Assembly: GCF_004354045.1 (NCBI RefSeq)
Contig: NZ_SMRT01000011.1
Location: forward strand, 62,001-126,000
Reading direction: 5' to 3'
DNA: 64,000 nucleotides
From: Paenibacillus piri
GTDB lineage: Bacteria; Bacillota; Bacilli; Paenibacillales; NBRC-103111
Made by a program: the position numbers and the translations under genes. The notes under the pieces are model-generated. The model searched no databases, was not told where the DNA came from, and saw nothing but the letters and a program-made list of their open reading frames with translations. Of this stretch, positions 29,859-36,106 are shown one piece after another. Positions within the stretch are counted from its first letter, which is position 1; every line of letters begins with the position of its first letter.

Positions 29859-29923
29859 TTGACAAGTGCCAATTTCATACTAAAGTCGCATATACGCTCA
29901 TCCGAACGGATGAGCGTTTTTTT
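29859..29923 (+). other. promoter-like boxes running straight into a terminator
   Basis: TTGACA (29859-29864), 16 bp, TAAAGT (29881-29886), and 7 bp later a strong terminator: ACGCTCATCCG / CGGATGAGCGT (29894-29917) with TTTTTTT. Either the terminator serves a lost plus-strand gene or a very short RNA is made. The rest of the gene-free stretch 29691-30089 shows no ORF with a start signal. Confidence 0.5.
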
Positions 29924-30089
29924 GTCATAGTTCATTCCCCGTGCTGACGCTCAAAGCTTCCTTATGCGGTAATCTAAGAGCGTGGTGAATAAATCGCGGA
30001 GAGGGCGGAATCGTTCTGGAGAAGCGTGAGCGAATCGCCTTTGTCCCCGGATTTCTACCGCTAATGCGGGTAAAAAAGGAGTGGTTGAG

Positions 30090-30839
30090 ATGGCACGGTT
30101 ACACGGAAAAGTAGTCATGATTACAGGAGGTTCGAAAGGTCTGGGGAGAGCGCTCGCATTTGCGTTTGCCAAGCAGGGAGCGAAGCTCGCGATTGCGGCG
30201 CGGGGAGAGCGAGCGCTAATGAGCGTCAAACGGGAGCTGGAGGCATTGGGCGTCGAGGTGCTGGCGACAGTCGGAGATATGTCCGTGTCCCGCGACGTGG
30301 AACGGTTTGTCGCGGCCGCGGAAGACAGGTTCGGACGGATCGATGTGCTGATCAATAACGCGTCCGTCCTCGGTCCGAGTCCGATGCCGCTGCTGCTGGA
30401 TTATCCGGAAACGGACTTTGCCGAGGTGCTTCGCGTTAATGCCGTCGGTCCGTTCCTGGTGACCCGGCGCGTCATCGCGAATATGCTGGTCCGTGGAGAC
30501 GGCTCCATTATTAACGTTACGTCGGCCGCAGGAAATGTCGGCTACGCCGGGTGGGGCGCCTACGGAATTTCCAAGTTCGCCTTGGAAGGATTGACGGAAA
30601 CTTGGGCCGACGAGCTGCAGGAAACGGAGGTGCGTGTCAATATGGTAGACCCCGGCGAGATGGATACGCAGATGCACGCCCTGGCCGTCCCGGACTGCGA
30701 CTATGAGCTTGCAGTTCCTAATGATGTGACCGGCGTGTTTTTGTATCTCGCCTCCGAGGATTCGGCGCATGCCAACGGGCAGCGATTTATAGCCCCGCAA
30801 TTTCTTCGGCAGGAAGGAGGCGGCGGGCATGGATACTAA
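30090..30839 (+). CDS. short-chain dehydrogenase/reductase, first gene of QueA-like operon
   Basis: 249-residue classical SDR: MITGGSKGLGRALAFAF (TGxxxGxG, about 10-26), INNAS (NNAG-like), NVTSAAGNVGYAGWGAYGISK (catalytic Ser then YxxxK). ATG 30090 follows AAGGAG at 9 nt. Its last codons overlap the start of the QueA-like gene by 11 nt, so the two are co-translated. An alcohol/ketone oxidoreductase using NAD(P)H. The genetic coupling suggests that it acts on the substrate or product of the QueA-like enzyme (inference). Confidence 0.9.
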   Translation: MARLHGKVVMITGGSKGLGRALAFAFAKQGAKLAIAARGERALMSVKRELEALGVEVLATVGDMSVSRDVERFVAAAEDRFGRIDVLINNASVLGPSPMPLLLDYPETDFAEVLRVNAVGPFLVTRRVIANMLVRGDGSIINVTSAAGNVGYAGWGAYGISKFALEGLTETWADELQETEVRVNMVDPGEMDTQMHALAVPDCDYELAVPNDVTGVFLYLASEDSAHANGQRFIAPQFLRQEGGGGHGY

Positions 30840-31866
30840 AACGGTCGTATTCGAGCTGCCCGACGAATTAAACGCGGCCTCGCCTCCGGAAAGGAGAGGC
30901 ATCCGGCGCGATCATGTCAAGCTGCTTGTTCTTGACCGGCAAACGGGTCACAGGTCGCACGCCCATTTTCATCAACTAGGCGAATATGTGCAGCCTGGGG
31001 ATTTGCTCGTCTTGAATGCAAGCCGGACGATCCCCTGCGTGCTGTACGGCGTCTGGAGAAGAAGTGGCGCAGTCATGGCGGCGCGCGTCGAAATCCGGCT
31101 TGCCCGGCGATTGAACGGTGCGGCTTGGGAAGCGCTGGCGGTAGATGCCACGGTGGAAGCCGGCGATACGTTCGAATTTTCACCCGCACTGTCCGCCGTG
31201 GCGGAGGGCACATCCGTCAAGCCTTTGATCCGGATCGTTTTTTCATTGGAGGGTGCTGCATTAATGGATCAAATATATGCGTGGGCCGAGCCGGTCCGCT
31301 ATGAATATATCCGTCAACCGTGGGAGCTGGACTACTACCAGACGGTGTATGCATCCGTGCCGGGTTCGGTTGAAATGCCGTCGGCAGGCAGGGCGTTCAG
31401 TTGGGAGCTGCTGTTCAAATTGCAGCGAAGCGGCGTACGTATTGCGTACGTTCAGCTTCATACCGGCTTGAGCTATATACCGGAAAGCGGCGGTCATCCC
31501 GACCCGACATATAATTTCGAACAGTTTGAGGTGCCTGCCGAAACGATCGAGGCCATCAAGCAAACGATGCAGCGCGGCGGAAAAGTGATCGCCGTGGGCA
31601 CGACTGTCGTTCGCGCCCTGGAATCGTCCGTCGACGCCAGCCGTGAGCCGGTCGCCATGTCCGGCTGGACGAATTTGATGATTAACCGCACTACTCCTCT
31701 TCAGGTCGTAAACGGATTAATCAGCGGATTCCATGAGCCGGAAGCGAGCCATCTCGAGCTGTTATCCGCTTTTGTCGACCCGGATATGCTGTATGACGCT
31801 TACCGGGAGGCGATTGAGCTCGGCTATTTGTGGCATGAATTCGGCGATATGAATTTGATTATATAA
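30829..31866 (+). CDS. diverged QueA paralogue (SAM:tRNA ribosyltransferase-isomerase fold)
   Basis: 345 residues, same length and motif order as QueA: FELPDELNAASPPERR, NASRTIPCVLYG, VEIRLARRL, YYQTVYASVPGSVEMPSAGR, LHTGLSYIPE, GGKVIAVGTTVVRALES, GFHEPEASHLELLSAF, YREAIELGYLWHEFGDMNLI. Several usually invariant QueA stretches are changed: LHVGxGTFxPV to LHTGLSYIPE, the MHSE motif to NFEQFE, and TNFHLPxSTLL to SGFHEPEASHL. QueA transfers the ribosyl part of SAM to preQ1 in tRNA. These changes at tRNA/substrate regions suggest another acceptor. ATG 30829 has AGGAGG 8 nt upstream. No tgt, queG or queC-F genes are adjacent. Confidence 0.85.
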   Translation: MDTKTVVFELPDELNAASPPERRGIRRDHVKLLVLDRQTGHRSHAHFHQLGEYVQPGDLLVLNASRTIPCVLYGVWRRSGAVMAARVEIRLARRLNGAAWEALAVDATVEAGDTFEFSPALSAVAEGTSVKPLIRIVFSLEGAALMDQIYAWAEPVRYEYIRQPWELDYYQTVYASVPGSVEMPSAGRAFSWELLFKLQRSGVRIAYVQLHTGLSYIPESGGHPDPTYNFEQFEVPAETIEAIKQTMQRGGKVIAVGTTVVRALESSVDASREPVAMSGWTNLMINRTTPLQVVNGLISGFHEPEASHLELLSAFVDPDMLYDAYREAIELGYLWHEFGDMNLII

Positions 31867-31883
31867 AGGATGGGATAAGATTG

Positions 31884-32303
31884 ATGCTTCATCATGTATC
31901 CATCGAAGTCGCATATTTGGAAAGATCGGTTGCCTTCTATGAGCGTTGGCTGGGTTTCACAATGGAAGCGCGAATGGAATGGGAAAACGAACGGATCGCT
32001 TTTTTGAAGCTGGGGACGGACCGACTGGAGCTGGTGCAGCCCGAAACGTTCGTTCCATCCCCGGCTCGTACGCACATCGCGTTCGAAGTGGAGAATACGG
32101 ACGCGTTATGCAACCGATTGCGGTCTGTACGTTCGGTACGGATCGAAGAACAGCCGGTTGTAATGGCGAACGGATGGAAGGTCGTGTTTATATCAGGGCC
32201 GGACGGCGAGCTGCTCGAGTTCATTGAAATTGTAAAAAATCCGGCGAGCGGGTTTAGCGCCAGCATCATGGGAAACGAAACATATGGGATGGAATATGAC
32301 TAA
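31884..32303 (+). CDS. VOC (glyoxalase/bleomycin-resistance fold) protein
   Basis: 139 residues with paired beta-alpha-beta-beta-beta modules: LHHVSIEVAYLERSVAFYER at the start, HIAFEVENTDAL in the middle and VFISGPDGELLEFIEIV at the end. Metal-ligand positions are His (HHVS), Glu (ELVQPE), His (HIAFEVE) and Glu (LLEFIE), so a metal-dependent isomerase, lyase or dioxygenase activity is possible. It follows the QueA-like gene by 17 bp (RBS AAGGATGGGA) and is the third operon member, before a terminator. Confidence 0.85.
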   Translation: MLHHVSIEVAYLERSVAFYERWLGFTMEARMEWENERIAFLKLGTDRLELVQPETFVPSPARTHIAFEVENTDALCNRLRSVRSVRIEEQPVVMANGWKVVFISGPDGELLEFIEIVKNPASGFSASIMGNETYGMEYD

Positions 32304-32339: not shown

Positions 32340-32522
32340 GTATATATCTGGAAATACAAGCGGTTGATCCGCAGTTTATCAATATATTTGATAAAACTTA
32401 TAAGATGATTCTAATTGACCTGGCTCGTAAGCTATGATAGGTTCTAATGAGTATCATTAATTATATATTAATACTTGGAATTAAAGCTCATATTTCATGC
32501 ATGCTACGCGAGGTGGATAGTG

Positions 32523-34343
32523 GTGGAACTTAAAGTAACGAACAGTCCTTTTAATCAGGAGCAGGTCGAGCTGCTCAATCGCCTTCTGCCTGCGCTGACG
32601 GAAACGCAGCGGATGTGGTTGAGCGGATTTCTTACAGCGCTTCAAAGTCCGGCGGCTGCTGCAACGGCAGGTACGCCGTTGGCGGGTACAGTCGCGAATG
32701 CGGTACCCGTCTCCAAGGAAGTCACCGTACTCGTCGGTTCTCAGACGGGCAATTGCAACGGCTTGGCGAAAAAGCTGTCGAAAAAGCTGGAGGAGCAAGG
32801 ATTTCAGGTGACGCTCTCGGCGATGAGCGCCTTTAAAACGAACAATTTAAAAACGATTCAGCATTTGCTTGTTCTGGTGAGCACTCATGGGGAGGGCGAA
32901 CCGCCGGACAACGCGATTTCGTTCCATGAATACCTGCACAGCAAGCGGGCGCCCCGACTGGAAGGGCTGCGGTTTTCCGTGCTTGCGCTCGGCGACACAT
33001 CGTATGAGTTCTTTTGCCAGACGGGCAAAGATTTCGACAAGCGTCTGGAAGAGCTCGGCGCCAAGCGGATTGCTCCGCGCGTCGATTGCGACGTGGATTT
33101 TGACGAGTCCGCCGCAGAGTGGATGAAACAAGTGCTTGGCGCTTTAAGCGAGGCTTCTGCGGTACCGGCCGCTGTCGATCCCGGAAGCGCGGCGCTATTA
33201 AGCAGGACCGAGTCGGAATATTCGAGAACGAATCCGTTCCAGGCCGAGGTGCTTGAGAATTTGAATCTGAACGGCCGCGGATCGAGCCGGGAAACCCGTC
33301 ATGTCGAGCTGTCCCTGGAGGGCTCGAACTTTGAATACGAGCCTGGCGACAGCCTGGGCATATATCCGGAAAACCATCCTCGTCTCGTAGACGAGTTGAT
33401 TGAGGCTATGGGCTGGAAAGCGGAGGAGCCCGTTGCCGTAAATAAGAACGGCGAAGAACAGCCTTTGCGCGAAGCGCTGCTGCGCCATTTCGAAATCACT
33501 GTGCTGACGAAGCCGCTGCTCGAGCAAGCGGCCAAGCTGACTCCGGACAGCAGCCTGAATGAGCTGCTGGAGGCGGGACGCGAGCAGGAGCTCAGAGCTT
33601 ATTTGACCGGCCGGGATCTGCTTGATTTGGTGCAGGATCATAATTTGCGCGGCGTTCCGGCGCGCGATTTTACGGCGATTATGCGGAAAATGCCTGCTCG
33701 CTTGTATTCGATCGCAAGCAGCTCGAAGGCGTATCCGGATGAGGTTCATGTTACGGTCCGCACCGTGCGTTATAACGCTCTGGGCCGCGACCGTTACGGC
33801 GTCTGCTCCGTACAGCTCGCAGAGCGCGTGCAGTCCGGCGCAACGCTGCCGGTATTCATTCAGCAAAATTCGAATTTCAAGCTGCCTGAAAGTCCGGATA
33901 CGCCGATCATCATGATCGGACCGGGTACGGGCGTCGCTCCGTTCAGAGCCTTCCTTGGCGAACGGGAGGAGACAGGAGCGGCCGGTAAAGCATGGCTGTT
34001 TTACGGAGACCAGCATTTCGCCACCGATTTCCTTTACCAGGTCGAATGGCAGGGCTGGCTTAAAAGCGGCGTGCTGACGCGCATGGATGTCGCGTTCTCC
34101 CGCGATACCGATCAGAAAGTATATGTGCAGCACCGGATGATGGAAAAAAGCCGCGAATTTTACAAATGGCTGCAGGAAGGCGCTTGCGTCTACGTCTGCG
34201 GCGACGAGAAAAAAATGGCGCATGACGTCCATGCGGCGCTCGCAGCCATACTCGAGCAGGAGGGCAAGTTTAGCCCTGAAGAAGCCGCCGAATATTTGAC
34301 CCGTATGCAACAGCAGAAACGTTATCAGCGGGACGTGTACTAG
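32523..34343 (+). CDS. cysJ: sulfite reductase (NADPH) flavoprotein alpha-component
   Basis: About 606 residues. N-terminal helical segment (MELKVTNSPFN, LLPALTETQRMWLSGFL), flavodoxin domain with FMN loop GSQTGNCNGLA (about 73-83) and STHGEGEPPDN, an FAD domain with RLYSIASSS and YGVCS, and an NADPH domain with GPGTGVAPFRAFLGE and the CVYVCGDEKKMAHDV end. It supplies electrons from NADPH to the CysI hemoprotein. Start GTG 32523 (or 32520) with GAGGTGG 5-8 nt upstream. The 200-bp region before it shows TTGACC/TATGAT-like boxes but no certain CymR or CysL site. Operon with cysI. Confidence 0.96.
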   Translation: MELKVTNSPFNQEQVELLNRLLPALTETQRMWLSGFLTALQSPAAAATAGTPLAGTVANAVPVSKEVTVLVGSQTGNCNGLAKKLSKKLEEQGFQVTLSAMSAFKTNNLKTIQHLLVLVSTHGEGEPPDNAISFHEYLHSKRAPRLEGLRFSVLALGDTSYEFFCQTGKDFDKRLEELGAKRIAPRVDCDVDFDESAAEWMKQVLGALSEASAVPAAVDPGSAALLSRTESEYSRTNPFQAEVLENLNLNGRGSSRETRHVELSLEGSNFEYEPGDSLGIYPENHPRLVDELIEAMGWKAEEPVAVNKNGEEQPLREALLRHFEITVLTKPLLEQAAKLTPDSSLNELLEAGREQELRAYLTGRDLLDLVQDHNLRGVPARDFTAIMRKMPARLYSIASSSKAYPDEVHVTVRTVRYNALGRDRYGVCSVQLAERVQSGATLPVFIQQNSNFKLPESPDTPIIMIGPGTGVAPFRAFLGEREETGAAGKAWLFYGDQHFATDFLYQVEWQGWLKSGVLTRMDVAFSRDTDQKVYVQHRMMEKSREFYKWLQEGACVYVCGDEKKMAHDVHAALAAILEQEGKFSPEEAAEYLTRMQQQKRYQRDVY

Positions 34344-34381
34344 TTGACGATCCCGAAGATCGCGAGAGGAGATAAGCAAGC

Positions 34382-36106
34382 ATGTCAGATAACAATTTAG
34401 TGTCGCCGCATAGTGCGCCGCACAGCGACGTTGAAGATATTAAACGAAACAGCAATTACTTGCGCGGAAGTCTTAACGATACGCTGGAAGATCCTATTAC
34501 CGGCTCCATTCCGGAAGACGATAACCGGCTGATGAAGTTTCACGGCAGCTATATGCAGGATGACCGGGATTTGCGCAACGAGCGGAGTAAGCAGAAGCTG
34601 GAGCCGGCATATCAGTTCATGCTTCGTGTGCGCGCGGCCGGCGGGATTGTCACGCCCGATCAGTGGCTGATGATGGACCGGATCGCACAAAAATACGGCA
34701 ACGGATCGATCCGGTTGACGACCCGTCAATCGTTCCAACTGCACGGCGTCATCAAATGGAATCTGAAGAAGACGATTCGCGAAGTGAACGACGCTTTGTT
34801 AAGCACACTGGCCGCCTGCGGAGACGTCAACCGCAACGTCATGTGCAATCCGAATCCGTACCAATCGGAGGTTCATTCCGAGGTGTACGAATGGGCCCGC
34901 CGGATCAGCGATCACCTAGATCCGCGAACTAGGGCCTATCACGAAATTTGGCTGGATGGGGAGAAAGTGGTCGACAGCCAATCGAGCGGGGAAGAGCAGG
35001 AGCCGATTTATGGCAAGGTATATTTGCCGCGCAAGTTTAAAATCGGAATGGCCGTTCCGCCTTCCAACGATGTCGACGTATTTTCCCAGGATCTCGGGTT
35101 TATCGCGATAATCGAGGATGGCCGATTGAAGGGCTTTAATGTAACGGTCGGCGGCGGGATGGGAATGACGCACGGCGATCCGCTGACTTACCCGCAAGTC
35201 GCTCAAGTGATCGGGTTTTGTACGCCGGAGCGGATTGTCGACGTAGCCGAGAAGACGGTTACGATCCAACGGGATTACGGCGACCGTTCGGTTCGGAAGC
35301 ATGCGCGCTTTAAATATACGATCGACGACCGCGGCATCGATTGGTTCATCCATGAACTATCCGACCGTCTCGGATGGAAGCTGGAGGAAGCGCGTCCCTA
35401 CCATTTTGACCATAACGGAGACCGTTACGGATGGGTGAAAGGCAGCAACGGCAAATGGCATTTCACATTCTTTATCGAGAACGGCCGGATCAAGGATGAA
35501 GAGAATTATCAGCTGATGACCGGTCTCAGAGAAATCGCCAAGGTGCATAACGGAGATTTCCGTCTTACCCCGAATCAGAACCTGATCATCGGCAGCATCA
35601 GCAGCCAGAAAAAGAAGCGCATTGAAGAATTGATCAAGGAGTACGGGATCGCCGACGGTATCCATAATTCCGCATTGCGAAAAAATTCAATGGCCTGCGT
35701 TGCGCTGCCTACTTGCGGGATGGCGATGGCTGAAGCGGAGCGTTACCTCCCGACGCTGCTTGATAAAATCGAGCCGATGCTGGAGGAATCCGGACTTCGC
35801 GACGAGGAAATCGTCATCCGCATGACCGGCTGTCCGAACGGCTGCGCCCGTCCTATGCTGGCGGAAATTGCGTTCATCGGCAAAGCTCCGGGCAAATACA
35901 ATATGTATTTGGGCGGCGGGCATGCCGGAAACCGTCTGAACAAGCTGTACAAGGAAAATATCGGCGAGACGGAAGTTTTGGAGTCGCTGAAGCCGATTAT
36001 TGCCCAATACGCGAAGGAACGGCGGGATGGAGAGCATTTTGGCGACTTTGTCATTCGTGCCGGATACGTAAAAGAAGTGCGTTCCGGACAAGATTTCCAT
36101 TCCTGA
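34382..36106 (+). CDS. cysI: sulfite reductase (NADPH) hemoprotein beta-component
   Basis: 574-residue assimilatory sulfite reductase. Ferredoxin-like half-repeats precede the siroheme/4Fe-4S binding segments: [19 protein letters not shown] (C-x5-C, about 438-456) and [10 protein letters not shown] (C-x3-C, about 480-489). [13 protein letters not shown] is the conserved siroheme-contact segment. It reduces sulfite to sulfide in cysteine biosynthesis, using CysJ as electron donor. RBS GAGAGGAGA before ATG 34382; 38 bp after cysJ. A strong terminator follows. cysH, cysC and sat genes are not in the window. Confidence 0.97.

Follow-up and report, generated by a model that had tools for sequence, protein, structure and literature searches.

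QueA is the tRNA preQ1(34) S-adenosylmethionine ribosyltransferase-isomerase, and TGT makes its tRNA substrate. Keyword searches of open papers (which covered neither preprints nor most subscription papers) retrieved no description of a QueA paralogue together with an SDR, and no role for a QueA homologue outside queuosine-type chemistry. We analysed a 64 kb stretch of Paenibacillus piri DNA, here called the window, in which an earlier note made from the letters alone had singled out a gene set of SDR, QueA paralogue and VOC. Open reading frame calls and Pfam matches bore out this set: positions 30090-32303 hold three co-directional genes in the order SDR, QueA homologue and VOC (Table 1), matching adh_short (186 bits), PF02547 (261.8 bits, residues 6-344) and Glyoxalase (54.2 bits), respectively.

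The SDR and QueA-like genes overlap by 11 bp, and the VOC gene starts 17 bp downstream of the QueA-like gene. Given this overlap, the first two genes are coupled and not "translationally fused", as they had been described; an SDR-QueA gene fusion was rejected, none occurring in the 123 loci examined. For the candidate leader, promoter-like plus hairpin sites in the region were no more numerous than in shuffles, and an Rfam search upstream of the operon left it without a match.

Table 1. Features of the SDR-QueA-like-VOC region, in window positions.
Feature	Position	Strand	Remarks
Candidate leader	29859..29917	+	TTGACA-16-TAAAGT promoter-like site (29859-29886), then directly a 10-bp hairpin and T run (29894-29917)
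SDR oxidoreductase, classical fold	30090..30839	+	ATG start, 249 aa; in-frame GTG at 30081
QueA-like paralogue, SDR-linked subfamily	30829..31866	+	ATG start, 345 aa
VOC (glyoxalase-fold) protein	31884..32303	+	ATG start, 139 aa

A QueA subfamily with its own conserved residues

The window's QueA-like protein scored 185.8 with TIGR00113 (cut-off 267.45) and 212.4 with PRK00147 (cut-off 324), below both thresholds. The curated QueA cut-off was missed by all 19 paralogues scored, the window's included; by TIGR00113 the 18 others reached 169-225, as against 437-491 for their canonical counterparts in those genomes. Alignment confirmed the claim that near-invariant QueA motifs are altered: in the window protein GTFxPV reads SYIPES, MHxE reads YNFE, NFHLPxSTL reads GFHEPEASH, AAPTAGLHF reads EMPSAGRAF and YRFFSFGD reads YLWHEFGD. 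These changes are common to more than 100 other loci, and their recurrence there together with the gene linkage excludes chance. Across 132 paralogue and 41 canonical rows (one locus with a broken frame, L110, was dropped), the paralogues did not carry the canonical residues of AAPTAGLHF, GTFxPV, HxMHxE and NFHLPxSTL, some single residues excepted, such as Glu of MHxE and His of FHLP.

The full QueA fold order, read from the sequence by the earlier note, was found again over the whole length by the PF02547 match, by an AlphaFold model (mean pLDDT 92.2) and by Foldseek, in which the only matches under E 0.001 were the QueA structures 1vky (E 1.9e-28), 1yy3 and 1wdi. A solved QueA-SAM complex, sought for residue mapping, was not among these structure matches.

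The tree of QueA homologues that the earlier note had proposed placed the paralogues in a separate, supported clade. In this tree, for which rows were thinned by identity and duplicate loci removed, 105 paralogues and 24 of the 41 canonical QueAs were split by one label change, on a branch with an SH-aLRT of 97. Conserved in both groups are 51 columns, including D58, N63, Y170, Q171, E231, GTT257-259, R262, E265, H302 and D340 (window numbering). A further 16 positions are fixed differently in the paralogues, among them E182, M183, S185, R188, G300, E303, H308, W335 and E337 (window numbering), and there is an insertion around R23-G24. Canonical H189, H228, M230, H231 and T216-F217-x-P219, numbered by the canonical QueA of the same genome, are lost. 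The SDR-linked QueA-like proteins are a separate QueA subfamily with a re-tooled, well-conserved residue set.

Residue conservation of this kind bears on the donor. Sixteen positions fixed in a different state would suit a fold reused for SAM-free chemistry, whose substrate might for instance be a different nucleoside sulphonium, a nucleotide cofactor or what the SDR itself produces; with no QueA-SAM complex among the structures found, individual residues give no basis for arguing that SAM binding has been kept. The 51 shared columns speak against this reading, being most simply read as a retained donor site, and we consider it quite unlikely.

Queuosine genes in the host genomes

The genome of the window has a canonical queA on another contig (C45:267540-268586, 477.5 bits; the window lies on C3), adjoining tgt, so that the gene in the window is a paralogue, as the earlier note had suspected and proposed to check. 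TGT was found on C45 only, and QueC-type matches on C59 (258.3 bits) and C57 (27.5 bits); all lie outside the window's contig, in agreement with the claim that no other queuosine gene is near. Canonical gene and paralogue were both present in all 18 Bacillota hosts tested.

TGT was absent from 17 of 20 actinobacterial hosts, with a TGT control search positive in 14 of 14 genomes, and in these 17 hosts the paralogue was the only QueA-family match. The three actinobacterial hosts with TGT were those with a second QueA, in the canonical range. QueC was absent from the 17 TGT-less hosts or gave at most 31.5 bits, the two clear QueC matches having 258.3 and 199.8 bits. The missing TGT makes the case for independence from queuosine stronger than the earlier note could know, and a queuosine label on SDR-linked QueA-like genes would be erroneous in TGT-less hosts at the very least. 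In phyla other than the actinobacterial one TGT does occur, for example in the genome of the window and in four of the five bins that, among 19 named hosts, carried the paralogue without canonical QueA. In these TGT-bearing bins the paralogue could do QueA's work, provided that the bins are complete.

A redundant, back-up or stand-in QueA in ordinary queuosine synthesis would agree with the PF02547 match, the coexistence of both genes in Bacillota and the TGT of these four bins, and may still apply in bins of that type. As a general explanation it is disfavoured by the tree, the residues, the NCBIfam cut-offs and the absence of TGT and clear QueC from many hosts, and is highly improbable. The original interpretation found partial support: the gene is not the only queA of its genome and its linkage recurs, and the SAM-ribosyl chemistry is a candidate.

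Partner genes and redox sensors

One scan for related loci retained the top 80 relatives from a total of at least 566, so the named sample is biased towards near relatives. Four loci, judging from the length and position of their contigs, were second contig copies; they were removed from the tree and from the VOC, regulator and fusion counts (132 to 128) and retained in the residue comparison, the SDR-linkage count, the SDR and VOC conservation and the identity correlation. The SDR-QueA-like pair occurs in many bacterial phyla, and an SDR match lay directly upstream of the QueA-like gene in 127 of 132 loci; with 7.3 kb of upstream sequence at L119 and 787 bases at L098, these two loci had room for an SDR gene but lacked one. 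Pairwise identities of SDR and QueA-like proteins were correlated over 120 loci (r 0.89). The window's SDR has a complete Asn-Ser-Tyr-Lys tetrad (N117, S145, Y158, K162), conserved in 120, 121, 121 and 121 of 121 linked SDRs including its own, a TGxxxGxG motif (T12, G13, G17 and G19, in 119-120 of 120) and, after the second strand, R38, which is also conserved.

A VOC gene was present at 57 of 72 Bacillota loci (duplicates removed; L205, whose genome belongs to the same phylum, counted) and was seen at none of the loci outside Bacillota, so VOC was rejected as a general core partner, and the step assigned to it would be dispensable or otherwise done elsewhere. Of the three-gene linkage proposed earlier, the SDR part is thus near-universal and the VOC part was seen in Bacillota alone. 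A conserved wider cluster in Paenibacillaceae was also rejected, since neighbours vary apart from SDR and VOC, and a search of IMG/VR found no relative carried by viruses. H4, E49, H64 and E112 are the same in all 59 VOCs compared, that of the window among them, and are likely a four-ligand metal site, judging from the fold.

VOC enzymes whose metal site is complete act as proton-transfer catalysts on sugar fragments such as would arise if SAM or a damaged derivative were split without an outside acceptor. Salvage or repair of SAM or adenosyl metabolites, with SDR and VOC processing the sugar fragment, would suit these invariant ligands and the retained core common to QueA. Such a general role predicts neither the patchy presence of the operon (12 of 104 family genomes, 0 of 12 other genus genomes) nor redox regulators, and the residues that have switched point to a particular new ligand; we give this reading a small chance.

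Nucleic-acid modification under redox stress is a further, unlikely explanation, in which the QueA-like protein would act on another RNA or DNA nucleoside and the SDR would reduce an epoxide-type product, replacing QueG/QueH. QueA moves a SAM ribosyl unit onto a modified tRNA base (PMC1282579, in part), its fold is retained over the whole length of the paralogue, and queuosine loss in E. coli disturbs metal and oxidative-stress homeostasis (PMC9508795, in part). Against this stand the 17 actinobacterial hosts without TGT and with at most weak QueC matches, the loss of the canonical residues listed above, and the VOC beside most Bacillota operons, which suggests small-molecule chemistry.

The regulators recurring beside the operon were SoxR, AirS-like kinases with a Cys motif, other GAF kinases and SufR-like proteins. 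Matches to histidine kinases (HK), SoxR and SufR-like proteins numbered 64 in 0.67 Mb near the operon and 3 in 1.03 Mb far from it, a comparison in which queries taken from the loci themselves favour the near side. None was found in 21 canonical queA neighbourhoods or within the 64 kb of the window, and 60 of 105 tree rows had no such regulator within reach, some contigs being short. On the tree, HK changed separately 13 times, SoxR 3 times and SufR-like 6 times. This redox-sensor context of the relatives was not visible to the earlier note, which had named the SDR and VOC as partners.

One representative linked SoxR scored 195.1 with TIGR01950 (cut-off 116.9), and the Cys-X2-Cys-X-Cys-X5-Cys motif of SoxR was present in 10 of 10 aligned proteins; the other two of the 12 actinobacterial loci are tblastn matches only. 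Two SufR-like proteins scored 99.1 and 126.1 with TIGR02702, below its cut-off of 178.8. Kinase clusters were built as connected components, which put GAF kinases bearing the Cys motif together with those lacking it: Cys-X3-Cys-X-Cys plus a further Cys was found in 18 of the cluster's 21 Bacillota kinases and in 0 of 18 other members. The full motif is missing from many of the linked GAF kinases, so the signal that they sense is a guess.

One long-spacer palindromic promoter, of the form TTGACTT-palindrome, was shared by 11 of 12 SoxR-linked loci, always just 5' of the SDR gene, and was found nowhere else in the fetched loci or the window. The E. coli-type SoxR box is CCTCAAG-N4-CTTGAGG; allowing up to two mismatches, it had no match in 10 SoxR-linked loci scanned and was rejected as the shared element, the shared palindrome having other letters. 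At L187 and L191 no soxR match lies within the scanned stretch, yet a palindrome near the E. coli box precedes the SDR gene, its pattern matching only these two loci and their shorter copies.

Proposed function and comparison with known systems

The QueA fold probably has a second job besides queuosine. We tentatively favour a patchily distributed redox-stress pathway, separate from queuosine, in which the SDR-QueA-like operon would carry out SAM-ribosyl chemistry on a small-molecule acceptor. The QueA-like protein would keep the basic QueA reaction, with S-adenosylmethionine as ribosyl donor and loss of adenine and methionine, and its acceptor would be a small molecule and not preQ1-tRNA. Oxidation or reduction by the SDR may follow, either of the cyclitol derived from the sugar or of the acceptor; the VOC may isomerise the resulting compound or open its epoxide. 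Redox-cycling compounds, NO or oxygen stress would call for this chemistry, which would either yield the product or conjugate a toxic redox-active compound. More speculatively, the QueA fold might serve, outside queuosine and also in queuosine-less organisms, to make a sensor-controlled SAM-derived cyclopentane or ribosyl compound or to conjugate it to redox-active toxins. A large sister subfamily that also occurs in TGT-less hosts, is tied to an SDR and is repeatedly found beside SoxR, AirS-like or SufR-like sensors is a testable gap in enzyme annotation. Signature residues (E182-M183, R188, E303, H308, W335-H336-E337) and possible inducers (redox cyclers, NO, oxygen) come with it, and the operon may lead to novel SAM-ribosyl chemistry and to an additional arm of the redox response in bacteria.

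Among known systems, QueA (PF02547, TIGR00113; 1vky, 1yy3, 1wdi) shares with the window protein its full-length fold and the 51 conserved columns. The window protein differs by its score below the curated cut-off, its separate clade, 16 switched positions, the insertion and the lost canonical histidines; an SDR partner and TGT-less hosts are features of the paralogue. A QueA homologue on Geobacillus thermodenitrificans pGeo12a (NZ_CP020031.1), in a cluster of biosynthetic look, has E182, M183, R188 and E337 as in the SDR-linked family, but has the canonical His at 189 and Asn at 300 (window numbering), branches with canonical QueA and has no SDR or VOC among 29 annotated features of 28 kb.

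In S. coelicolor, an NAD-dependent epimerase/dehydratase and several oxidoreductases are among the published SoxR targets (PMC7674942, in part); no QueA homologue was found as a published SoxR target in the literature searched by keyword. Non-enteric SoxR regulons resemble the SoxR-linked loci in that the SoxR gene diverges from the operon and a long-spacer palindromic promoter lies at the operon start. No NCBIfam model named the AirS-like kinase at cut-off. It shares with AirSR of Staphylococcus aureus the Cys-X-Cys-X17-Cys part of the [2Fe-2S] motif, which in AirS is Cys-X7-Cys-X-Cys-X17-Cys (PMC4601167, in part), and differs in its first spacing (X3 in the operon-linked kinase, X7 in AirS) and in its linkage to the SDR-QueA-like operon.

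A QueA paralogue with switched motifs

The operon of an SDR gene, a QueA homologue and a VOC gene is present as the earlier note had described it (see table). The QueA homologue fills PF02547 with 261.8 bits and scores far below the curated QueA models (185.8 versus 267.45 and 212.4 versus 324). Elsewhere in the same assembly, a second QueA gene (477.5 bits) is followed by tgt on contig C45, and contig C59 carries a clear QueC. Since the genome thus holds queuosine genes elsewhere, the QueA homologue of the window is a paralogue, as had been proposed.

Features of the operon, of its surroundings and of related loci
Feature	Sequence	Position	Strand	Remark
Promoter-like site	window	29859-29917		
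SDR	window	30090-30839	+	first gene of operon
QueA homologue	window	30829-31866	+	11 bp overlap with SDR gene
VOC	window	31884-32303	+	17 bp after QueA homologue
Sulphite-reductase-like gene pair	window	32475-36106		after operon
Second QueA gene	C45, own genome	267540-268586		
tgt	C45, own genome	268668-269729		after second QueA gene
QueA-like gene of L110	G109:C1	3141454-3142440		one in-frame TAG
pGeo12a locus (L249)	NZ_CP020031.1	27309-39922		another QueA homologue

The promoter-like site, approximately 170 bp before the SDR gene, has a perfect TTGACA hexamer and runs straight into a strong hairpin and a T run; it is possibly an attenuator, a tiny transcript or a chance occurrence. The two genes after the operon resemble, as judged by reading, the flavoprotein and hemoprotein of assimilatory sulphite reductase, and the matches listed next to the operon in 11 family loci include neither of them.

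In a maximum-likelihood tree of QueA homologues, a single label change separates 105 paralogues from 24 canonical QueAs (SH-aLRT 97). The paralogue closest to the canonical side of this unrooted tree is that of L119, a Chloroflexi locus without SDR. Residues were compared at a conservation threshold of 85%, with 132 rows (some of them duplicates) for the paralogues and 41 for canonical QueA. Fifty-one columns are conserved in both groups, and 16 positions are conserved within each group yet differ between them. In the paralogue rows, canonical AAPTAGLHF reads EMPSAGRAF, NFHLPxSTL reads GFHEPEASH and RFFSFGD reads LWHEFGD. Besides the switched positions, paralogues carry an insertion around R23-G24. 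They have lost H189, H228, M230, H231 and T216-F217-x-P219-V220 (numbering of the own genome's canonical QueA) and have kept D58, N63, Y170, Q171, E231, G257-T259, R262, E265, H302 and D340 (window numbering). The confident AlphaFold model of the window protein (mean pLDDT 92.2) matched only QueA structures in the PDB at E < 0.001, namely 1vky (two chains), 1yy3 and 1wdi. We found no QueA structure with bound SAM; the common core would form the SAM side and the switched residues the acceptor side.

Another QueA homologue, 37% identical to the window protein, is encoded on the conjugative plasmid pGeo12a of Geobacillus thermodenitrificans. It has E182, M183, R188 and E337 in common with the SDR-linked family but, unlike that family, retains the canonical His at 189. 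Its neighbours are a PLP decarboxylase, two PqqD family proteins, two thymidylate synthase-like proteins, a thymidylate kinase-like protein, a NUDIX protein, an APH-fold kinase and an ABC transporter, possibly a nucleoside-type natural product cluster.

Distribution, partner genes and relation to queuosine

Within the same family the paralogue is found in 12 of 104 genomes, own genome included (at least 264.8 bits; next match 176.1), and in none of the 12 other members of the genus; of 398 genomes drawn from the phylum, three carry it, again including the own genome. The named-genome scan yielded at least 566 confirmed stretches, the best 80 of which were taken as loci; these come from Bacillota, Verrucomicrobiota, Chloroflexota, Cyanobacteriota, Fibrobacterota, Acidobacteriota, Actinomycetota and one bin labelled Nitrososphaerales, many of the non-Bacillota loci being metagenome bins. 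Of 198 genomes in the phylum to which one actinobacterial host belongs, 39 (host included) reached at least 284.7 bits to the subfamily profile (next 246.1). The in-frame TAG in the gene of Alkalihalophilus pseudofirmus OF4 (L110) may reflect recent pseudogenisation or faulty sequencing; unlike it, the matching gene of A. marmarensis (L111) is open.

The gene linkage, whose absence from other genomes would have counted against the earlier note's reading, recurs. An SDR match lies directly upstream of the QueA-like gene in 127 of 132 loci, some being fragments at contig ends. Among the other five, L079 and L125 are cut by a contig end, the SDR of L177 lies approximately 1 kb further upstream, and no SDR was seen in the 787 available bases of L098 or in 7.3 kb of L119. 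The SDR stop falls -60 to +40 bases from the QueA match start in 105 of 123 loci, the SDR tetrad is kept in 120-121 of 121 and R38 in 120 of 120, and the identities of SDR and QueA-like proteins correlate (r 0.89, 120 loci). A VOC gene follows in 55 of 63 named Bacillota loci, in 2 of 8 family loci and in none of 57 others, which include the Bacillota locus L205; four likely metal ligands are invariant (59/59).

No TGT was found in 17 of 20 actinobacterial hosts (control: TGT in 14/14 genomes), and in these 17 the paralogue is the sole QueA-family match. Their QueC matches are absent or weak (at most 31.5 bits, some above Pfam's low cut-off of 22; compare 258.3 in the own genome and 199.8 in genome G617). 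In the remaining three, TGT directly adjoins a second QueA of canonical score range. A canonical gene is also present in all 18 Bacillota hosts tested (437-491 bits). Evidence in the opposite direction comes from 19 named hosts: both genes are present in 14, but five, all metagenome bins, have only the paralogue; as four of these five contain TGT, the paralogue might serve as QueA there, or the bins might be incomplete. In the Chloroflexota bins G112 and G121 (contigs C151 and C170), the TGT match is split by approximately 29 extra codons into two pieces that share a single open frame; this frame is 414-417 aa long and lies approximately 14-15 kb from the QueA-like gene; canonical QueA was not found in these possibly incomplete bins.

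Redox regulators and promoter elements

Within -4 to +5 kb of the 132 loci we found GAF histidine kinases (42), SoxR (12) and a SufR-like regulator (9). With four duplicate loci removed, 64 regulator matches fell in 0.67 Mb within approximately 3.5-3.8 kb of the operon versus 3 in 1.03 Mb beyond, an enrichment whose size is biased upward because the queries were drawn from the loci themselves. The same queries gave no match in 21 canonical queA neighbourhoods, and none of the three regulators is present in the 64-kb window. Changes on the tree (kinases 13, SoxR 3, SufR-like 6) indicate that the pairing was gained or lost several times. Gene order varies: in Bacillota the kinase usually lies downstream, in actinobacteria it is either upstream or divergent, and one Chloroflexi and one other bin have it upstream. 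The one linked SoxR scanned exceeded its curated cut-off (195.1 versus 116.9), and two kinases and two SufR-like proteins received no NCBIfam name at cut-off. Cys-X3-Cys-X-Cys plus a further Cys is found in 18 of 21 Bacillota members of the kinase cluster, and the full motif is absent from its 18 members of other phyla, some of which may resemble DevS.

Where soxR and the SDR gene diverge, the stretch between them contains, at the 10 loci first examined, a TTGACTT-type -35 box (TTGCCTT in L186), then either a palindrome or a near-palindrome, and a -10-like box, arranged as in MerR-family promoters. Of the 12 SoxR-linked loci, 11 have the pattern TTGACTTnAAnnTnAnTTnAACT, which is absent from all other loci scanned for it and from the window; eight further matches are shorter versions of these sites. 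The pattern differs in sequence from the E. coli sox box. Among the single lines of evidence that SoxR may control the operon at SoxR-linked loci, this shared promoter is the strongest. At L187 and L191 only, approximately 780 bases before the QueA match and in front of the SDR, stands TTGACCTC(G/A)AGNNNGGTCGAGGTC, which resembles the E. coli-type sox box, with no soxR seen next to it. Repeated CCTAGG or GAAGGGCCC-like words, possibly response-regulator sites, stand upstream of the SDR at six actinobacterial loci whose GAF kinase is divergent (L185, L192-L195, L199).

Proposed role and comparison with known systems

The operon most likely encodes a redox-stress pathway. A small acceptor would receive a ribosyl (or cyclopentane) unit from SAM through the QueA-like enzyme; the SDR would transfer hydride and the VOC protein, where present, would carry out a metal-dependent isomerisation or epoxide opening. 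The data directly show only which parts the operon has, how they are conserved, that TGT-less hosts carry it and which regulators lie around it; we infer every chemical step.

Keyword searches of the open literature found no paper on the pairing of a QueA homologue with an SDR; the word QueA-like stands in one open paper, where it denotes a fold class (PMC1282579). The fold and the probable donor are familiar from earlier work, unlike the partner, the regulation and the acceptor. In PMC4601167 and PMC8774646, SoxR is reported to answer redox-cycling molecules and NO, and AirS to answer oxygen, H2O2 and NO. The cysteines of the Bacillota kinases come close to the [2Fe-2S] motif reported for AirS, Cys-X7-Cys-X-Cys-X17-Cys (PMC4601167).
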